Assembly: GCA_016219175.1 (NCBI GenBank)
Contig: JACRCD010000063.1
Location: forward strand, 1-43,767
DNA from: Deltaproteobacteria bacterium
GTDB lineage: Bacteria; Desulfobacterota; Desulfobulbia; Desulfobulbales; SURF-16
DNA: 43,767 nt
Direction of reading: 5' to 3'
Below, piece after piece: positions 4 to 35,672 of the stretch (the first letter of the stretch is position 1; every line of letters begins with the position of its first letter). The position numbers and the translations under genes were made by a program. The notes beneath the pieces were generated by a model. The model saw only the letters and a program-made list of their open reading frames with translations. It ran no database searches and was not told where the DNA came from.

Positions 4-181
4 ATGAACTCGTAAAAAGTCGGCGACAAAGCCCGGATGGCTAAGTAACAAAATTCGATATACAAGGCGTAGTGTATTTTTGAGAGTGAGGCTATACATG
101 TGGTATGCCGAACGAACAAAAATGCGCTACAACGCAGTAGAGCGGATTTATGCCCTTCAGGGTATTTTTTACGACGCCATC
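4..181. repeat. MITE-like element with inverted ends
   Basis: The left end (4-21) and the reverse complement of the right end (163-181) match closely: both begin GATG, differ at three bases, then share TCGTAAAAA. About 140 bases with no supported gene lie between them. The right end supplies the last codons and the stop of the permease remnant that follows, so the element abuts or has invaded the 3' end of that gene. No transposase is visible. A small non-autonomous element is the simplest reading, but no other copy lies in the window. Confidence 0.4.
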
Positions 182-1071
182 AAAAAAAACGAGCCGTAAA
201 TCATCCCGCTGAAGGTCGCCATGACAATCACCAGACTGACAAAGACCACGGTTTTCCTGGTGCCCATGATAGTGCGGATCACCAGCATGTTCGGCAGACT
301 AAGCGCCGGCCCGGCCAGCAACAGGGCCAGGGCCGGACCCTGGCCCATGCCGCTGCCGATCAATCCCTGCAGGATCGGCACCTCGGTAAGCGTGGCAAAA
401 TACATGAAGGCCCCGGCAAACGAGGCCACGAAGTTGGCCGTAAACGAATTGCCCCCCACGGCCCGGCTGACCCAGACGGAGGGGATCAGACCTTCCTCTC
501 CCGGACGGCCGAGCAGAATGCCGGAAATGAGCACGCCGAACAGCAAAAGCGGCAGAATCTGTTTGGCAAAACCCCAGCTTTCCGCAAACCACGCCCCTGT
601 TTCATCCTCCCTGGGGCTGATGACGGCACTCAGGCCGATAACCCCGGCCACAAAGGCCAGGGTGGGATAACCGGCAAAGAAAAAGGCAAGGATGACCGCG
701 GGCAGGGCGGCCAGCGCCACCTGCCATTTCGGCAGTCCATACCAGAGCATGAGAATCAGACCCAGGCCTGCGGCAAAGAGGCCGCTGATCTGCCATTTAC
801 TAGCGTAAATCATCTGCCAGAGACCGGCGGGCTCCACGGGTTTTCCCCAGTTGGCAAAGACCAGGATAGCGACCATGGCGGCCAGATAGAGGGTGTTTTG
901 CCACAACGGCCGCGTCACCTCCGGTTCCGGCATGGCGGCCTGGGCCACGACCTTTTCCATCTCTTCCTTCCGGAAAAAGAAATGCATGAGCAGGCCGATG
1001 ATGACGCTGAAGGCGATGGCAGGCATGAAACCTGCCCCTACACCGGGCGGGCATGAAATCCGCCCATCCAT
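169..1071 (-). pseudogene. N-terminally truncated DUF318-type permease
   Basis: The 300-residue product is rich in membrane segments and matches the C-terminal part of DUF318 permeases. It has the conserved LTEVPILQGL stretch, a GPALALLLAGPALSLPNMLV segment and a GNSF/TANF segment. Intact members of this branch are longer and begin with a membrane half carrying a CSC-type metal-linked motif. Here that half is missing: the frame begins with a short non-family stretch translated from REP-like hairpins (1018-1065) and then enters the family around PAIAFSVIIGLLMH. The last residues (MAS) come from the inverted end of the repeat at 4-181. It lies downstream of the Sec-containing BFD-like gene and an intact permease. 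It could still be expressed as a fragment, but without the first half transport seems unlikely. Confidence 0.6.
1018..1065. repeat. Pair of REP-like hairpins
   Basis: Two short palindromes sit in tandem. GGCAGG (1018-1023) pairs with CCTGCC (1031-1036) and GGGCGG (1045-1050) pairs with CCGCCC (1060-1065). Both loops contain CATGAAA. The unit sits exactly where the truncated permease loses homology to its family, so it marks the deletion or insertion junction. Confidence 0.5.
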
Positions 1072-1072
1072 C

Positions 1073-1103
1073 CCTTATGCCTTAGGCCTTATGCCTTATG
1101 CCT
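1073..1103. repeat. Short CCTTATG-type tandem repeat
   Basis: Near-tandem copies of CCTTATG and CCTTAGG run through this stretch. The array overlaps the last codons of the Sec-containing gene, giving it a low-complexity tail. Confidence 0.5.
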
Positions 1104-1333
1104 ATTATCTTTATCTCTTGCCTTCCTTGCAACGCTTCGTCCACCACCTGGCGGACATCGGCCAGGCATCAGCGGCCCCGGGGATTGTTGACCGCACAGT
1201 TGCAGGCCCCGGCCCGGGACTCGGCCATGATCTTTTCCATGATGATGGAACGGCCGTGCTTGAGGGCATCCTCCCGGATCTCCAGTCTTGAGTAGCCGAA
1301 GCAGTAGCAGATCGTTTCCTTTTCTTCGTTCAT
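1082..1333 (-). CDS. BFD-like [2Fe-2S] protein, predicted selenoprotein
   Basis: An 83-residue protein if the in-frame TGA at 1171-1169 (codon 55) is read as selenocysteine. Cys pairs are at 9/11 (CYC) and 44/46 (CNC), followed by NPRGRUCLADV. The family consensus for CopZ-like/BFD-like [2Fe-2S] domains has NPxGRCCLxDV here, so Sec replaces the first Cys of the CC pair, and homology continues on both sides of the TGA. A hairpin at 1139-1156 has the right place and shape for a bacterial SECIS. The ATG is preceded by an AGGAAA ribosome-binding site and lies 9 bases after the permease stop. The tail after about residue 73 is repeat-derived. The family binds a [2Fe-2S] cluster and may hand over metal or electrons; a role in arsenic or metal handling with the flanking permeases is inferred. 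A conventional reading would stop at 54 residues and miss the domain end. Confidence 0.8.
1139..1156 (-). promoter_or_regulatory. Predicted bacterial SECIS hairpin (BFD-like gene)
   Basis: Twelve bases after the TGA on the minus strand, GUCCGCC pairs with GGUGGAC over 7 bp, including one G-U pair. The 4-base apical loop is AGGU. The loop begins 20 bases past UGA and carries the GG that SelB-binding loops such as that of fdhF show. Confidence 0.7.
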
Positions 1334-1341
1334 GACATTTC

Positions 1342-2439
1342 CTAAATAATGAAATTAAAGAGAAAACCGGTCAGCATGATGCCGGCGCCGACCACGGCAA
1401 TAAAGACACCGATCAATGCCGGCTTCAGCACCTTGCGCAGGATCACCATCTCCGGCAGCGACAGGGCGATAACGCTCATCATGAAGGCCAGCACGGTGCC
1501 GAGTGCCGCGCCCTTGCTGAGCAGGGCCTGCACCACCGGCACAATGCCGGCGGCATTGGAGTACATGGGGATGCCGACCAGCACTGCGGCGGGCACCGAC
1601 CACCAGGCCTGTTTGCCCATGATGGAGGCCATGAAATTTTCCGGCACATAGCCGTGGATCACGGCGCCGACGCCAATGCCCGCCACCACGTAAATCCACA
1701 CCCGGCCGACAATATCCTTTACCGCCTCCCCGCCCATCCGCACCCGGTCATGCCAGAAAAGTTTTTCTTCCTCCATGGCGTGCTCAGCCATGCGCAGCTC
1801 CCGCACCCAATCCTCAATATGATGTTCGAGATTAAGCCGGCCGATGACCCAGCCGGCCATGATGGCAATCGCAAGCCCTGTGGCCATATAGAGGGCGGCG
1901 ATCTTCCAGCCCAGCAGACCGTACAGCAGCACCAGGGCGATTTCGTTGACCATGGGGGCGGCGATGAGAAAGGAAAAGGTGACGCCAAGCGGCACCCCGG
2001 CCTGGACAAAACCGATAAAGAGCGGCACGGCCGAGCAGGAGCAGAACGGGGTGACAGTGCCCAGTAGGGCCGACATGACGTTGCCTGCCGACTCCCGTCT
2101 GCCGGCCAGAATCCGGCGCGTCCGCTCCGGGGTGAAAAAGGAGCGGATCATGCCCACCACAAAGACAATGAGGGTAAGAAGCATCATGACCTTGGGCGTG
2201 TCATAGACAAAAAACTGAATGGAGGCGCCCAGATGGCTGGCTTGGTCAAACCCAAGCAGACGATAGGTAAATAAGTTGGAAAACGGCAGCAGCTGGGAAT
2301 AGAGAACATACCAGACAGCCAGGCCAACAAGGCCCAGGCCCAGTTGCGGCACGGTTATTTTCTTCGGCCCATCGGGGGCGCTCAACGGGCAGACCCCTCC
2401 CTCACAGGCGCAGGTGGTTATTTTATCTGTTGATTCCAT
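1342..2439 (-). CDS. ArsP/DUF318-family permease
   Basis: A 365-residue integral membrane protein with about 8-9 hydrophobic segments. TPFCSCSAVPLF at about residues 130-141 is the signature of the DUF318/ArsP permease family, with Cys133 and Cys135. It is followed by the SFLIAAPMVNE segment and, in the second half, a GIPMYSNAAGIVP repeat of the same fold. ArsP members export trivalent organoarsenicals; other members have unknown metal or metalloid substrates. The N-terminal cytoplasmic stretch has three further Cys (10, 12, 17). It lies 36 bases downstream of arsR on the same strand and directly upstream of the Sec-containing BFD-like gene, so an arsR-controlled operon is likely. With arsM in the same locus, methylated arsenic is a reasonable substrate, but this is inference. 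Confidence 0.85.
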   Translation of the reverse strand: MESTDKITTCACEGGVCPLSAPDGPKKITVPQLGLGLVGLAVWYVLYSQLLPFSNLFTYRLLGFDQASHLGASIQFFVYDTPKVMMLLTLIVFVVGMIRSFFTPERTRRILAGRRESAGNVMSALLGTVTPFCSCSAVPLFIGFVQAGVPLGVTFSFLIAAPMVNEIALVLLYGLLGWKIAALYMATGLAIAIMAGWVIGRLNLEHHIEDWVRELRMAEHAMEEEKLFWHDRVRMGGEAVKDIVGRVWIYVVAGIGVGAVIHGYVPENFMASIMGKQAWWSVPAAVLVGIPMYSNAAGIVPVVQALLSKGAALGTVLAFMMSVIALSLPEMVILRKVLKPALIGVFIAVVGAGIMLTGFLFNFII

Positions 2440-2475: not shown

Positions 2476-2820
2476 CTACGCGGCGCAGGTTCGCTCCCGG
2501 TTGATCCGGGGCAACTGCGCCACCAGCTCCCGGATCTGGGGCTCGTCCTCAAGCCAGCCCCGCATATTTCCCAGCATGACCCTGGCATAGTCAGAGTCTT
2601 CACCCTTGCTCAGCCGGTAGATGATCCATGACCCTTCCTTGCGGAAGTCTACCAGCCCGGCCTCTTCCAGAATTTTCAGATGCTTGGAAACCGTGGGCTG
2701 GGCCAGACCGAGCAGCTGCCGCAACTCGCAGACGCAGAGTTCTTTCACGCCCAGTATCTTTATAATCTTTACCCGGCTGGGATCGGAAAAAGCCTTCATC
2801 ACACGGATAAATCGTTTCAT
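2476..2820 (-). CDS. arsR: ArsR-family repressor (upstream of permease)
   Basis: A 114-residue winged-helix protein. ELCVCEL places Cys29 and Cys31 in the first part of the recognition region, the classical As(III)/Sb(III)-sensing CxC of ArsR. The helix-turn-helix runs through AQPTVSKHLKILEEAGLV, and the wing follows at FRKEGSWIIYRL. It heads the minus-strand permease operon, with an AGGAGG ribosome-binding site at 2831-2836. It should release DNA on binding As(III). It is distinct from, and divergent to, the second arsR at 2960. Confidence 0.88.
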   Translation of the reverse strand: MKRFIRVMKAFSDPSRVKIIKILGVKELCVCELRQLLGLAQPTVSKHLKILEEAGLVDFRKEGSWIIYRLSKGEDSDYARVMLGNMRGWLEDEPQIRELVAQLPRINRERTCAA

Positions 2821-2959: not shown

Positions 2960-3307
2960 ATGCATGACATTACCAAACTTTTCAAGGCGCTCTCCGAAGA
3001 GGTGCGGTTGCGGATTCTCGGCCTGCTGATCCACGGCGAGCTTTGTGTCTGCTATTTGATGGCGGCTCTAAATCTCCCCCAGTCCACGGTTTCCCGGCAT
3101 CTCACCTATCTGGTCAATGCCGGCTGGCTGGAAGGAGAGCGACGCGGCGTCTGGATGTATTACCGTTTCAGCGGAAAGTCCGACAACCTGCGCAGGGATC
3201 TGCTGGCTGTATTGACAACACGTCTCATGGAGATTCCCGAAGTGACCAGGGACCATGAAAGGCTCAAGGAATATCTGCGGACAAAACCAACGTCGGCCTG
3301 CGGCTGA
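2960..3307 (+). CDS. arsR: ArsR-family repressor (upstream of acr3)
   Basis: A 115-residue winged-helix repressor, clearly different from the divergent one. ELCVCYL gives Cys29 and Cys31 of the As(III) site, and the recognition helix is in [18 protein letters not shown]. The ATG lies about 10 bases downstream of a good -10 and has no ribosome-binding site, so the mRNA is probably leaderless or nearly so. It leads the acr3-arsM-MOSC-metallophosphoesterase genes. Its presumed operator differs in sequence from that of the divergent arsR, which suggests the two repressors act on separate sites. Confidence 0.88.
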
Positions 3308-3345: not shown

Positions 3346-4434
3346 ATGGCCCAACAGAAAAAAAAGCTTTCCTTTCTCGACCGTTTTCTCACCTTCTGGA
3401 TCTTTCTGGCCATGTTTACCGGCGTGCTCGGCGGCTATCTCTATCCCGGCATCCGTGACATCATCAATTCCTTTCAAGCCGGAGCCACCAATATCCCCAT
3501 CGCCATCGGCCTGATCCTCATGATGTATCCGCCCCTGGCCAAGGTGCGCTACGAAAAGCTGCACGAGGTCTTCCGCAATGGGAAAGTGCTCACCCTGTCG
3601 CTCGTGCAGAACTGGATCATCGGCCCCATTCTCATGTTCGGCCTGGCCATCGCCTTTCTTGCCGGCCATCATGAGTATATGGTGGGACTGATCCTCATCG
3701 GCCTGGCGCGTTGCATCGCCATGGTCATTGTCTGGAACGACCTGGCTTACGGCGACCGGGAATACTGCGCGGGTCTCGTGGCCTTCAATTCCATCTTCCA
3801 GGTCCTCTTTTTTCCCCTGTACGCCTGGATCTTCATCACCATGCTGCCGAAATGGTTCGGCATTGCAAGCGCGGTGGTGGATATTTCCATGGCCGAGATC
3901 GCCAAATCGGTTTTCATCTACCTCGGCCTCCCGTTCATCGCGGGCATGCTGACCCGTTTCATCGGCGTGAAAACCAAGGGGGAAGAGTGGTACCAGGAAA
4001 AGCTGCTGCCGAAAATCAGCCCGCTCACCCTGGTTTTTCTGCTCTTCACCATCCTGGTCATGTTTTCGCTCAAGGGTGAATACATCGTCCAGTTGCCGTT
4101 TGACGTGGTGCGCATCGCCGTGCCGCTCACCATCTATTTTCTGGTGATGTTTCTGCTTTCCTTTTTCATGTCCATGAAGGTCGGGGCCACCTATGAACAG
4201 TCGGCCACCCTCTCTTTTACCGCCGCTTCCAACAATTTCGAACTGGCCATTGCCGTGGCCATCGCCGTGTTCGGCATCGATTCCGGCCAGGCCTTTGCCG
4301 CGGTGATCGGCCCCCTGGTCGAGGTCCCGGTTCTCATATCGCTCGTCAATGTAGCATTCTGGTTCAAGAAAAAATATTTTCCCTTTGCCAAACAAACCCC
4401 AACAGGCGTCTGCCATGTGAGTTGCAAGCCATGA
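3346..4434 (+). CDS. acr3: Arsenite efflux permease Acr3
   Basis: A 362-residue protein with about ten membrane segments, the usual size of Acr3. It exports As(III) by exchange for protons. The Acr3 core is evident: [17 protein letters not shown], then the [18 protein letters not shown] segment with the conserved Cys (about residue 123) known to be needed for transport, and the C-terminal [20 protein letters not shown] stretch. The ATG at 3346 has an AAGGA site about 9 bases upstream and is preferred over the TTG at 3322. The stop overlaps the arsM start by 4 bases (ATGA), so the two are translationally coupled. Confidence 0.93.
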
Positions 4435-5225
4435 AAACAAACGATCAGATAAGAACAGCTGTGTTGAAACGCTACGAAGCCGTTGCCCTGTCGGATAAAC
4501 AAGGTTGCGGCTGCGGTGCGCAATCCTGCTGCACTCCGCAGTCCTCTGCCCCGGAATTATCCGCGCAGCTCGGTTACTCGGCCGAAGAGATGAGCAATGT
4601 CCCGGAGGGCGCCAATATCGGCCTGGGCTGCGGCAACCCCCAGGCCATTGCCAACCTGCGCCGTGGTGAGACAGTGGTGGATCTGGGCAGCGGCGGCGGT
4701 TTTGATTGTTTTCTTGCCGCCCTCCAGGTGGGTGAGGAAGGTCATGTCATCGGCATTGACATGACTCCGACCATGATCAGCAGAGCCAGGGAAAACCTTC
4801 TCAATACACCGCATAAAAATGTGGAATTCCGTCTCGGCGAGATTGAATATCTTCCCGTGGCCGACAACACAGCGGATATTATCATCTCCAACTGCGTGAT
4901 CAATTTGTCGCCGGACAAAAAGCAGGTATTTCGAGAAGCATATCGGGTGCTGAAGCCGGACGGCAGACTGGCTGTCTCTGATGTGGTGGCGACCAGGGCT
5001 TTTCCCGAAGAGCTCAAAAGAGATCTGGACAAGCATGCCGGCTGCGTGGGCGGGGCCGCCCTGGTTGACGATCTGCGGCTGATGCTTGCGGCCGCTGGCT
5101 TCACCGATATCCGTATTACTCTAAAGGCAGGAAGCCGGGAGTTTATCAAAAACTGGTTTCCCGGCAGTGGTCTGGAAAATTATGTTGCCTCGGCGGCCAT
5201 TGAAGCCGTAAAATCAAATAAATAG
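4431..5225 (+). CDS. arsM: Arsenite S-adenosylmethionine methyltransferase
   Basis: A 264-residue class I SAM-dependent methyltransferase. The SAM loop is [15 protein letters not shown] (about 82-96). The three Cys characteristic of ArsM are present: Cys67 in GLGCGNP, Cys155 in [11 protein letters not shown] and Cys205 in HAGCVGGA, the arrangement that binds As(III) in characterised ArsM proteins. An N-terminal Cys cluster ([10 protein letters not shown], 26-34) is also typical. It methylates As(III) to mono-, di- and trimethylated forms. The start overlaps the acr3 stop. Together with an ArsP-type permease across the divergent promoter, it suggests a methylation-plus-export strategy. Confidence 0.92.
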
Positions 5226-7937: not shown

Positions 7938-8261
7938 TTACTGGGCAAACATTTCCTGCAATATATTGAGAATATTTTTTTGGGCATCACTGCTGATTGC
8001 TCCGAGTTTTTTTATAAGTCTTTCTTTGTCTATGGTTATGATTTGATCCAGAACAACCTGCCCTTTTTGTTCCTGGAAAGTGCATGAAATTCGTGTGGGA
8101 TAACTTTTACCCTTGGTTGTCATGGGGGCGACAATGACGGTAGAGGTAAAACAGTTCATTTCATCGGGAGAAATTACGAGACATGGTCTTGTTTTTTTGA
8201 TTTCATGACCAATTGTGGGGTCAAGGTTGACAAGATAGACGTCAAACCGTTTTATTTCCAT
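7938..8261 (-). CDS. mazF: MazF/PemK-family toxin
   Basis: A 107-residue protein of the MazF/PemK/CcdB fold, a sequence-specific endoribonuclease family. It starts MEIKRFDVYLVNLDPTIGHE and continues with KTRPCLVISPDEMN, the conserved strand-loop carrying the catalytic Arg, and IVAPMTTKGK. The ATG at 8261 overlaps the end of mazE by 10 bases and is preferred over an upstream in-frame start inside mazE. Partner and order (antitoxin first) fit a type II module. Confidence 0.88.
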   Translation of the reverse strand: MEIKRFDVYLVNLDPTIGHEIKKTRPCLVISPDEMNCFTSTVIVAPMTTKGKSYPTRISCTFQEQKGQVVLDQIITIDKERLIKKLGAISSDAQKNILNILQEMFAQ

Positions 8262-8503
8262 TCCCACTCTTCCTTGTCCCATCGAGTCTGTGTCTCAGCA
8301 TCCAACAACTTGTCCTCTCCATTCGCGGCCATGACCTTGAATGCATTTTCCCAATCTTGGCGCGGACGCCTCAATGGCTTGATAATCAAATCATGGTTGC
8401 GGACCTCAAATTCTACCTCGTTTTCAAACCCGCATTGATCGATTATCGGTTTAGGGATGCGCACCCCTTGTGAATTGCCGATTTTAATGATGGAAGCTTT
8501 CAT
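8252..8503 (-). CDS. mazE: MazE/AbrB-type antitoxin
   Basis: An 83-residue protein with an N-terminal AbrB-like swapped-hairpin DNA-binding domain, KIGNSQGVRIPKPIIDQCG, the hallmark of MazE. The acidic, Trp-rich C-terminus (RWDKEEWEW) is the probable toxin-binding tail. The start at 8503 follows a GGGTGG site. A palindrome overlapping its promoter is the likely autoregulatory site. Confidence 0.88.
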   Translation of the reverse strand: MKASIIKIGNSQGVRIPKPIIDQCGFENEVEFEVRNHDLIIKPLRRPRQDWENAFKVMAANGEDKLLDAETQTRWDKEEWEWK

Positions 8504-8543
8504 ATGCGCCACCCGGATGTAGATTTTATTTGCAGCTTTTCGA

Positions 8544-16091: not shown

Positions 16092-16221
16092 TCCTGTTGG
16101 TCTGGTTGGTCTTACTGGTCTTATTAGTCTGATTGGCCCTATTAGTCTTATCGGTCTTATTAGTCAGACCAGTCAGACCAAGTAAACCAGCAAGACCAGT
16201 CGGGCCAGTCAGACCAGCCAG
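16092..16221. repeat. 9-bp tandem array with fold-back, mqnA-menG gap
   Basis: The gap is almost filled by 9-base units close to TTATTGGTC, which run for about 75 bases and then turn into their reverse complement (GACCAGTCA type) for the rest. The two arms could form an imperfect long hairpin in RNA or DNA. It is the same unit as in the mqnE-mqnC gap at 19304-19476. It is not a CRISPR, since there are no spacers. Confidence 0.75.
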
Positions 16222-16222
16222 A

Positions 16223-17050
16223 CTATTTACATAATTTCACCGGCAAGGCTTCCGCCGGGACATCTCCGCGTTTTATCAAAAAATCAAAGAAAAGCGTGAG
16301 GGCCTGCATTTTCCGCGGGGCCAGGTCGTATTCAATGCCGCACAGATACCTGTAACAGGAATCAACCGGCATGGGAATACGCGGCGCCACCCGGCGGCAG
16401 ACCTCATACAGTTCTTCCTTACCCTGGCGGATGCAGGCCAGCAGCTCCCGCCGGATGTCGCTGACGCACTGAGCATTCAGGCTAAAGAACTCCTCGCGCA
16501 CAGCCCAGACGGCAAAGACAAAAGGCAGTCCGGTGTGCTGCTGCCAGATCTCCCCAAGATCAAGGCAGAACGGGTATTCCCCTTTTGTTTTCAGACGCAG
16601 GGCCTCATCACCGATGGCCAGCACCGCGCTTGGCAGAGCGGTGGCAACCGGGAGAGGGCTGACCTGCCCGGCAAGATAACGTGGAGCAACCCGGTAAAAC
16701 TCCTCCAAGACGATCTTCACCAGGGCCACCGAGGTCTGTGACTGGCTGCTTAATTGCACGTCACAGTCCGTGAGTTGATCCGGCGCCACTCTGGAAAAAA
16801 GAAAAACGCTGCCGACCGGACCCGAGGCGCTGATGGAAATATCCTCCAAAATCCGGTACAGCTGAGGGTGGGCCGCATATTCATGGGAGGAGACAAAGCC
16901 CAGGTCAAGCTCATTGTCGCAGAGCATTCTATTCAAGGTGGTCGGGGCGCCTTCGGTCACCAGCCAGTCAGCCCTTTTCACCCTCTGCTGCCAGATCACA
17001 TAAAGCGGCGCCGTGTTGATAAAGTTGACCATACCGATACGCGCCGTCAT
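16223..17050 (-). CDS. mqnA: Chorismate dehydratase MqnA
   Basis: A 275-residue periplasmic-binding-protein-like enzyme, first step of the futalosine pathway (chorismate to 3-enolpyruvylbenzoate). The N-terminal RIGMVNFINTAPLY is the MqnA signature, and further conserved parts are ELDLGFVSSHEY, SSQSQTSVALVKIVL and IGDEALRLK. The length is usual. Its start lies 13 bases after the mqnX stop. Its stop abuts the repeat array. Confidence 0.92.
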   Translation of the reverse strand: MTARIGMVNFINTAPLYVIWQQRVKRADWLVTEGAPTTLNRMLCDNELDLGFVSSHEYAAHPQLYRILEDISISASGPVGSVFLFSRVAPDQLTDCDVQLSSQSQTSVALVKIVLEEFYRVAPRYLAGQVSPLPVATALPSAVLAIGDEALRLKTKGEYPFCLDLGEIWQQHTGLPFVFAVWAVREEFFSLNAQCVSDIRRELLACIRQGKEELYEVCRRVAPRIPMPVDSCYRYLCGIEYDLAPRKMQALTLFFDFLIKRGDVPAEALPVKLCK

Positions 17051-19303: not shown

Positions 19304-19476
19304 TATATTAGTCTTACTGGTCTTACTGGTCTTATTGGTCTTATTGGTCTTATTGGTCTGACTGGTCCTATTGGTCTTGCTGGTCCGACTGGTCCTATTG
19401 GTCTTGCTGGTCCGACTGGTGTGTTGTCTTTGACTAATGACTAATAAGACTAATGAGGCCAATCAGACCAATCAAA
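19304..19476. repeat. 9-bp tandem array with fold-back, mqnE-mqnC gap
   Basis: About twelve 9-base units near TTATTGGTC are followed by a shorter reverse-complement arm (AGACCAATCA type). It fills the entire intergenic space between the mqnE stop and the mqnC start codon, so it is part of the operon transcript. The unit is the same as at 16092-16221. Confidence 0.78.
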
Positions 19477-35513: not shown

Positions 35514-35672
35514 TAGCTACCCGGGGAAATAGACTGAAGGCTTCAAGGCCGCCGGTACCGACATTATTTTTTCAAGGCGCCCATATGTCTCTTATCGTCT
35601 GCCCTTTAGCCTTCAGCCTTCAGCCTTTAGCCTTCAGCCTTCAGCCTTCAGCCTAACCCACCGGGCAGTTAC
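35514..35672. repeat. Intergenic TIR element, copy 1
   Basis: The left end has TAGCTACCCGG followed by ATAGACTGAAGG. The right end, reverse-complemented, gives GTAACTGCCCGG followed by TTAGGCTGAAGG. The right half contains tandem CCTTCAG units (about 35610-35655). It is related to 38951-39086 and 41038-41148. Confidence 0.65.

Follow-up and report, generated by a model that had tools for sequence, protein, structure and literature searches.

A short gene near the start of the window, by which we mean the whole 43,767-nucleotide stretch of a Deltaproteobacteria contig that was analysed, is a real selenoprotein gene and not a pseudogene. There is very little doubt that SelA, SelB, SelC and SelD, acting through a downstream hairpin, insert selenocysteine at its UGA codon 55, a reading that comes from comparing the codon, the hairpin and the decoding genes across related genomes. 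Read through, the frame gives the product MNEEKETICYCFGYSRLEIREDALKHGRSIIMEKIMAESRAGACNCAVNNPRGRUCLADVRQVVDEALQGRQEIKIIGIRHKA, with the motif NPRGRUCL around codon 55. The ATG lies 8 nt past the stop codon of the ArsP_1 permease gene that precedes it, and AGGA is, from the sequence, its likely ribosome site (Table 1). The gene run contains an ArsR regulator and an ArsP_1 permease, and beside it lie a divergent ArsR, an SBF permease that we take to be Acr3-like, and an ArsM that scores above its cut-off. This is therefore an arsenic locus, as the earlier note had said.

Table 1. Features of the selenoprotein locus and its surroundings in the window.
Feature	Position	Strand	Basis or remark
Second ArsP_1-like permease, without about 154 N-terminal residues relative to congener counterparts	169..1071	-	Pfam; alignment to congeners
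CCTTATG tandem repeat containing the stop codon of the selenoprotein ORF	1073..1103	not assigned	
Predicted CopZ/BFD-like selenoprotein gene, 83 aa with U55	1082..1333	-	ATG at 1333, stop TAA 1082-1084
Predicted SECIS hairpin, 7 bp, loop AGGU	1139..1156	-	Bacterial SECIS rules and comparison of homologues
In-frame TGA, predicted selenocysteine codon 55	1169..1171	-	Same codon in 79/79 translated Sec-form loci; Cys in distant homologues
ArsP_1 (PF03773) permease, substrate putative	1342..2439	-	Directly upstream; Pfam E=2.5e-75
ArsR/SmtB-type regulator, head of the same-strand gene run	2476..2820	-	HTH_5 62 bits; NCBIfam HTH_metalloreg above cut-off
ArsR-type regulator, divergent	2960..3307	+	
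Acr3-like arsenite permease	3358..4434	+	Pfam SBF
ArsM, arsenite methyltransferase	4422..5225	+	NF008823, 343 bits against a cut-off of 263

Further along the window there is a MazF/PemK-like toxin gene (7938-8512, minus strand) with a MazE-like antitoxin upstream, and short tandem repeats with units of 7-27 bp are found at 16097-16223, 19311-19420 and 35603-35654.

Conservation of the in-frame UGA and its hairpin

We searched two sets, 257 genomes from the class and 395 sampled from the phylum, with a profile of the protein in which the TGA site was scored as Cys. Because of this scoring the search was neutral between TGA and TGC, and a Cys version would score at least equally high. Matches at E <= 0.001 were found in 119 of the 257 class genomes and 83 of the 395 phylum genomes. 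By hand count, all 116 class rows of at least 77 bits and all 56 phylum rows of at least 84 bits had an in-frame TGA, giving strong matches at 165 distinct places, 7 of them common to both listings. No Cys form was present among these 165. The phylum rows without any stop started lower, at 70 bits (L180) and then 65 bits (L181, which is a CopZ N-terminal protein of full length), and below about 64 bits both listings were a mixture of rows with and without stops.

The earlier note had placed the TGA where the family has the first Cys of a CC pair, and had proposed looking for TGA or TGC at this codon in homologues. Both points were borne out: TGA was found in 165/165 strong matches, and Cys-Cys occupies the site in aligned distant relatives, namely L180, L181 and four plasmid relatives (L227-L230). 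A plasmid-borne TGA form was sought among 21 plasmid records with relatives and rejected; all were below 60% identity, and the four of the 21 that were examined all had Cys. As Cys forms occur only as distant, differently built relatives, with none among the strong matches, the pattern suggests strong selection for selenium at the codon 55 site.

For closer comparison 80 loci were picked by hand from the matches, mostly one or a few per genus, which with the window made 81. A single TGA at the identical codon was found in 79 of the 81, followed by TGC (44 loci) or TGT (35). These 79 position-checked loci comprise 78 of the 165 strong matches and the weaker L179. Left out were L043, a chance match, and L031 and L032, which were weak or broken; L033 and L034 duplicate L022 and L023 and were omitted from alignment A2. 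The L024 row of alignment A1, taken from the wrong strand, and the L164 row of A6, read in the wrong frame, were also disregarded. In 21 aligned rows C56 and V60 were invariant past the TGA, and D59 and V63 nearly so. The homology downstream of the TGA is real but short; the claim that the family continues past this codon stands, and homologues do not end before it.

The predicted SECIS element, GUCCGCC-AGGU-GGUGGAC (1156-1139), starts 12 nt after the TGA and has its loop 19 nt from it. The rules for bacterial SECIS elements quoted in section 5 of PMC13188914 ask for 16-37 nt between TGA and loop, a loop of 3-9 nt with a G at its position 1 or 2, and an MFE of -7.5 or lower, and the window hairpin satisfies them as quoted there. 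The fold of this one sequence is insufficient as proof: on its own it had z = -1.26, and 25 of 200 shuffles folded equally well, which is not significant. Its significance comes from the comparison of homologues. At least five consecutive stem pairs were kept in 77 of 79 homologues, against no more than 22 of 79 in each of 500 synonymous-codon shuffles, for which the codon pool was that of this region itself. In 77 of 79, too, one of the first two loop nucleotides is a G, and the mean MFE over the 79 was -13.4 kcal/mol, compared with -9.8 (sd 0.3) in 30 synonymous shuffles.

Covariation pointed the same way. Pair 18-31 was C-G in 54 of the 79 rows, U-A in 18, U-G in 6 and unpaired in 1, the C-G/U-A exchange being a change on both sides of the stem. 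In the 21 rows, 88.4% of cells were paired, a value that fell to 27-59% when the 3' side was slid and was reached by none of 500 column shuffles, although 28 of the 500 did reach the observed count of pairs changed on both sides. The hairpin that had been described from the window alone, 7 bp with an AGGU loop at SECIS distance, thus lies within the published rules and has a stem that is maintained well beyond its controls.

Selenocysteine machinery and the state of the window copy

The earlier note had reasoned that a genome without selA, selB and selC would leave only a truncated pseudogene. We found selA, selB, selC and selD all present in the window genome, which rules out missing machinery: SelA scored 541 bits, SelB 365 bits (above its cut-off) and tRNA-Sec 68.9 bits (above gathering), with ARAGORN concurring on the tRNA and its anticodon, TCA. 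The SelD gene has an in-frame TGA of its own (G000:C88:161448-162374, L222), and SelD may itself be a selenoprotein.

The TGA form was present in 110 class genomes, 100 of which had a SelA match (only marginal in G139), and tRNA-Sec was found in 7 of the other 10. Neither SelA nor tRNA-Sec was found in the remaining three TGA-form genomes, G177, G144 and G080, which are 94, 87 and 74% complete. SelA co-occurred with the TGA form (p=0.005), but this is a weak test because 215 of the 257 class genomes have a SelA match. Replacement of the unfound SelA by an archaeal-type SepSecS was rejected, with PF05889 matching in 0 of 12 genomes. Nor did tblastn find a match to SelA or SelB in the 20 kb around tRNA-Sec (8.4 kb in G192) in G135, G148 and G192, which have no SelA match, or in G139. 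The near-complete genomes G135 and G148 (L240, L241) have tRNA-Sec and a TGA-form gene, yet no SelA or SepSecS match, and neither SelA nor SelB to about 10 kb from tRNA-Sec; a missed gene or another enzyme may account for their Sec-tRNA.

The 3' end of the window copy differs from that of its relatives. In the congener loci L104 and L105 the order is ArsP, CopZU, second ArsP, the last being 430-431 aa long, and it is the first 154 or so residues of this protein that are lacking in the window. Alignment of the window DNA to L105 breaks at 1137 and resumes at 1012, and alignment to L104 breaks at 1135 and resumes at 1020, while alignment to L103 extends to 1087. The selenoprotein tail is poorly conserved past about codon 66. 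Since the TGA, the SECIS element and the conserved domain all lie intact upstream of the repeat and the breakpoints, a functional window selenoprotein whose tail is variable is to be expected.

The reading of the TGA as a true stop, leaving a truncated pseudogene or a product that naturally ends after codon 54, could draw on the truncated adjoining permease and on the ORF's 3' end lying inside a repeat, but it is scarcely credible. Across 79 translated loci the TGA, the protein beyond it and the hairpin have all been kept, residues past the codon are conserved and the Sec machinery is present; conservation together with the synonymous-codon control on the SECIS element rules this reading out.

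Within the stretch from 1020 to 1115, which includes the CCTTATG repeat, segments 45-50 bases long are similar to two other sites in the genome (C44, 83%; C6, 78%), and the stretch is possibly a small interspersed repeat.

Protein family and predicted cluster

The assignment of the protein as BFD/CopZ-like, also made in the earlier note, holds by NCBIfam, Pfam, the PDB and fold ranking, with scores below the curated cut-offs. The protein matched NF047645 (CopZ_Nterm_CC) at 59.1 bits (E 5e-16; cut-off 100) over profile positions 83-137 of 138, Pfam Fer2_BFD at 20.7 bits (gathering 26), and NF045877, the Csac_0668 family, at 26 bits (cut-off 190). The best PDB sequence match was 2hu9 (E=0.0027), the CopZ N-terminal domain of Archaeoglobus fulgidus, with CYC aligned to CYC, C46 to C109 and U55-C56 to C118-C119. 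An AlphaFold2 model of the window protein had a mean pLDDT of 87.8, and in structure searches with it Bfd ranked first but weakly (best Foldseek E=1.5; VIA-align Z 5.2, rmsd 2.1 over 53).

Invariant positions in the 21 rows include C9, C11, C44, C46, U55 and C56. In the 79 rows C46 was present in all, C44 in 78 (not L174) and the N-terminal CxC in 78 (not L179). If the cysteines that we take to be the cluster ligands of 2hu9 are carried over to the window protein, C9, C11, C46 and C56 are predicted to hold a [2Fe-2S] cluster. U55 is directly beside C56, one of these predicted ligands, and C44 is one further conserved Cys.

The window protein differs from its described relatives in build. The CC pair of NF047645, named as a putative iron-sulfur cluster-binding metallochaperone, aligns with the window's UC, but the window protein lacks the zf_CopZ-type N-terminal half and has Sec in place of the first Cys. 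It likewise lacks the N-terminal half of CopZ by comparison with 2hu9, which for its part has no Sec and no equivalent of C44. The Csac_0668 family (CopZ_Nterm_CU, 'form 2') has a related domain with Sec in the same region, its motif being CU where the window has UC. NF045683, the MerT/CopZ fusion-like heavy metal transport selenoprotein, resembles the window in being a curated CopZ-type Sec domain tied to metal transport, so that this tie is already recognised in NCBIfam. It differs in being fused to MerT and of mercury type, and the NCBIfam matches of the window protein at E <= 1, two families in all, did not include it.

The closest described protein is the '(2Fe-2S)-binding protein (copper chaperone Copz family) form 1', a predicted selenoprotein of cd10141 (PMC9312934, PMC13188914). 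Its motif is given as GxUC for WP_245779778.1 (PMC13188914), and the window protein has GRUC. With Sec right before Cys in this motif and, it appears, the same domain class, the window protein is almost certainly of the same family. The earlier note knew of no described selenoprotein of the family linked to arsenic permeases, and here a correction applies: the Sec form is already listed as predicted in the relevant entries of both reviews. The window protein thus adds a member to a predicted family that had been catalogued before. The form 1 entries in the two reviews give no genomic context or function; the main text of PMC2398784, which both cite for form 1, does not contain 'CopZ', '2Fe-2S' or 'copper', and the form 1 selenoprotein is not named in the available portions of PMC5029168 and PMC12013277.

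Metal gene neighbourhoods and possible roles

We compared the surroundings of the 81 loci, to a reach of about 5 kb, with 40 control regions placed by hand at round coordinates in the sampled genomes. ArsP, ArsR, Acr3 and ArsM were taken as families from the window, whereas LMW-ArsC, Trx3 and MerR were chosen after the clusters had been seen. At least one of ArsP, Acr3, LMW-ArsC and ArsM was found at 23 of 81 loci against 1 of 40 controls (p=3e-4), or at 22 of 80 without the window, which matches itself. The figure was 18 of 63 among full-length loci (p=4e-4) and, with the window's own family set aside, 14 of 69 (p=0.007). The sampled loci are related to one another. By family, the 81 loci had ArsP in 18, ArsR in 19, LMW-type ArsC in 17, Acr3 in 11, small thioredoxin-like genes in 14 and MerR in 6, each with none in the 40 controls. 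ArsM showed no enrichment: among the 81 loci it occurred in the window alone, and one of the 40 controls had it too.

An ArsP_1-type permease was the next gene upstream on the same strand, 5-130 nt away, at 11 of the 81 loci. The neighbour sets A4 and A5 held same-strand genes within 350 nt, leaving aside the window's own; L180 was omitted from 56 upstream, and L180 and L181 from 43 downstream. ArsP_1 led the families found directly upstream, with 10 of the 55 scanned, and LMWPc came next with 4. On the gene tree the arsenic label required 12 changes; the tree, built on 66 columns, is poorly resolved, and its well-supported branches force only 3.

Mercury genes also recur. In two Sec-form loci (L113 and L137) the next downstream gene is MerT and MerR lies upstream; in a third (L176) the gene is preceded by an HMA protein and followed by MerF. 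Among the Cys relatives, L227 has a MerR-type gene on one side and merB on the other, L228 adjoins merF and L229 is near merB, though not adjacent. In L180 (3531-5426, minus strand) a CopZ-type CC domain is fused to mercuric reductase MerA in one open frame (TIGR02053 above cut-off), and in L230 (2189-3424, plus strand, plasmid CP036351.1) a CopZ domain (NF047645, above cut-off) is fused to MerT and HMA.

On this context we think it rather probable, if by no means assured, that a selenol/thiol protein with a predicted [2Fe-2S] site binds As(III)- or Hg(II)-type species and hands them on for transport. The proposed protein is small and stand-alone, of BFD/CopZ type, its UGA 55 read as Sec through SelA, SelB, SelC and SelD and the downstream hairpin. 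The CxC (C9, C11), C46 and C56 would hold the cluster, with U55 beside C56. In arsenic and some mercury operons the selenolate/thiol would bind soft metal(loid)s such as As(III), methyl-As(III) or Hg(II), or, alternatively, electrons from the cluster would keep metal(loid) species reduced. The metal(loid) would then be passed to the co-encoded transporter, and at loci without a nearby metal gene it may be that the protein acts likewise, but in trans. Selenium would make the site more nucleophilic than Cys and easier to re-reduce. The arsenic link recurs in other genomes, yet the redox relay or metalloid-binding site that the earlier note had envisaged is something that we infer.

There are limits to the metal role. 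Core arsenic genes were absent within about 5 kb at 58 of the 81 loci, and same-strand neighbours were mixed, so arsenic is not demonstrable as the sole role. Permeases of PF03773 need not carry arsenic, and the nearest NCBIfam names for the window permease 1342-2439 are SaoE (the best match, 141 bits, cut-off 325) and the SO_0444 Cu/Zn efflux family (101 bits, cut-off 300), both below cut-off. SaoE belongs to the Sec-assisted organometallic (SAO) system, in which, as described in PMC13188914, selenium is used near a PF03773-like efflux permease.

The many loci without arsenic genes fit a different account, in which the protein is a general redox or electron-transfer selenoprotein, a Bfd-like ferredoxin or a peroxide/thiol partner, that sits in the arsenic operons of some lineages merely because thiol-redox genes accumulate in such operons. 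The weakly Bfd-like predicted fold and the frequency of small thioredoxin-like genes agree with it. The spacing of the Bfd cysteines is C-x-x-C, which is not seen in the window protein, and a general role does not account well for ArsP_1 as the commonest direct upstream family or for Cys relatives that are fused to MerT-HMA or MerA. We regard this account as possible but doubtful. It is improbable that the protein is instead a metallochaperone for iron or copper, as the name CopZ would have it. NCBIfam does describe the related family of full-length proteins as putative metallochaperones, the top PDB sequence match is 2hu9 and one of the permease names is a Cu/Zn exporter, though below cut-off; against this, the zinc-binding N-terminal half is absent, and the recurrent clusters and the first 25 neighbour families listed contain arsenic and mercury genes but no copper ATPase or bacterioferritin.

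The preferred reading of a metal(loid)-binding selenoprotein can be extended, tentatively, to a lineage. In Desulfobulbales-like anaerobes a stand-alone BFD lineage with Sec throughout could be a dedicated metalloid carrier or reductant for ArsP- and MerT-type transport, which would make arsenic and mercury detoxification partly selenium-dependent through a selenolate beside an Fe-S cluster ligand; this broader picture is conceivable, and we would not lean on it. The recurrent arsenic and mercury link may reflect selenium taking part in metal detoxification. Were this so, the availability of selenium would affect how sediment anaerobes detoxify metals, and an Fe-S protein of 80 residues with Sec next to a cluster ligand would offer a tractable model of selenolate-cluster chemistry. 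The recurrent arsenic context of a CopZ-family selenoprotein is new to us and apparently new, the family itself being already catalogued; no link of a CopZ-type selenoprotein with arsenic genes was found in the literature as far as its accessible text goes, and work on selenoprotein neighbourhoods by Haft and co-workers may hold one.

The fused plasmid relative L230 also bears on annotation. It matches NF045683 weakly, and as its domains are CopZ-MerT-HMA by Pfam and NCBIfam, its annotation as "mercuric reductase" (merA) looks wrong.
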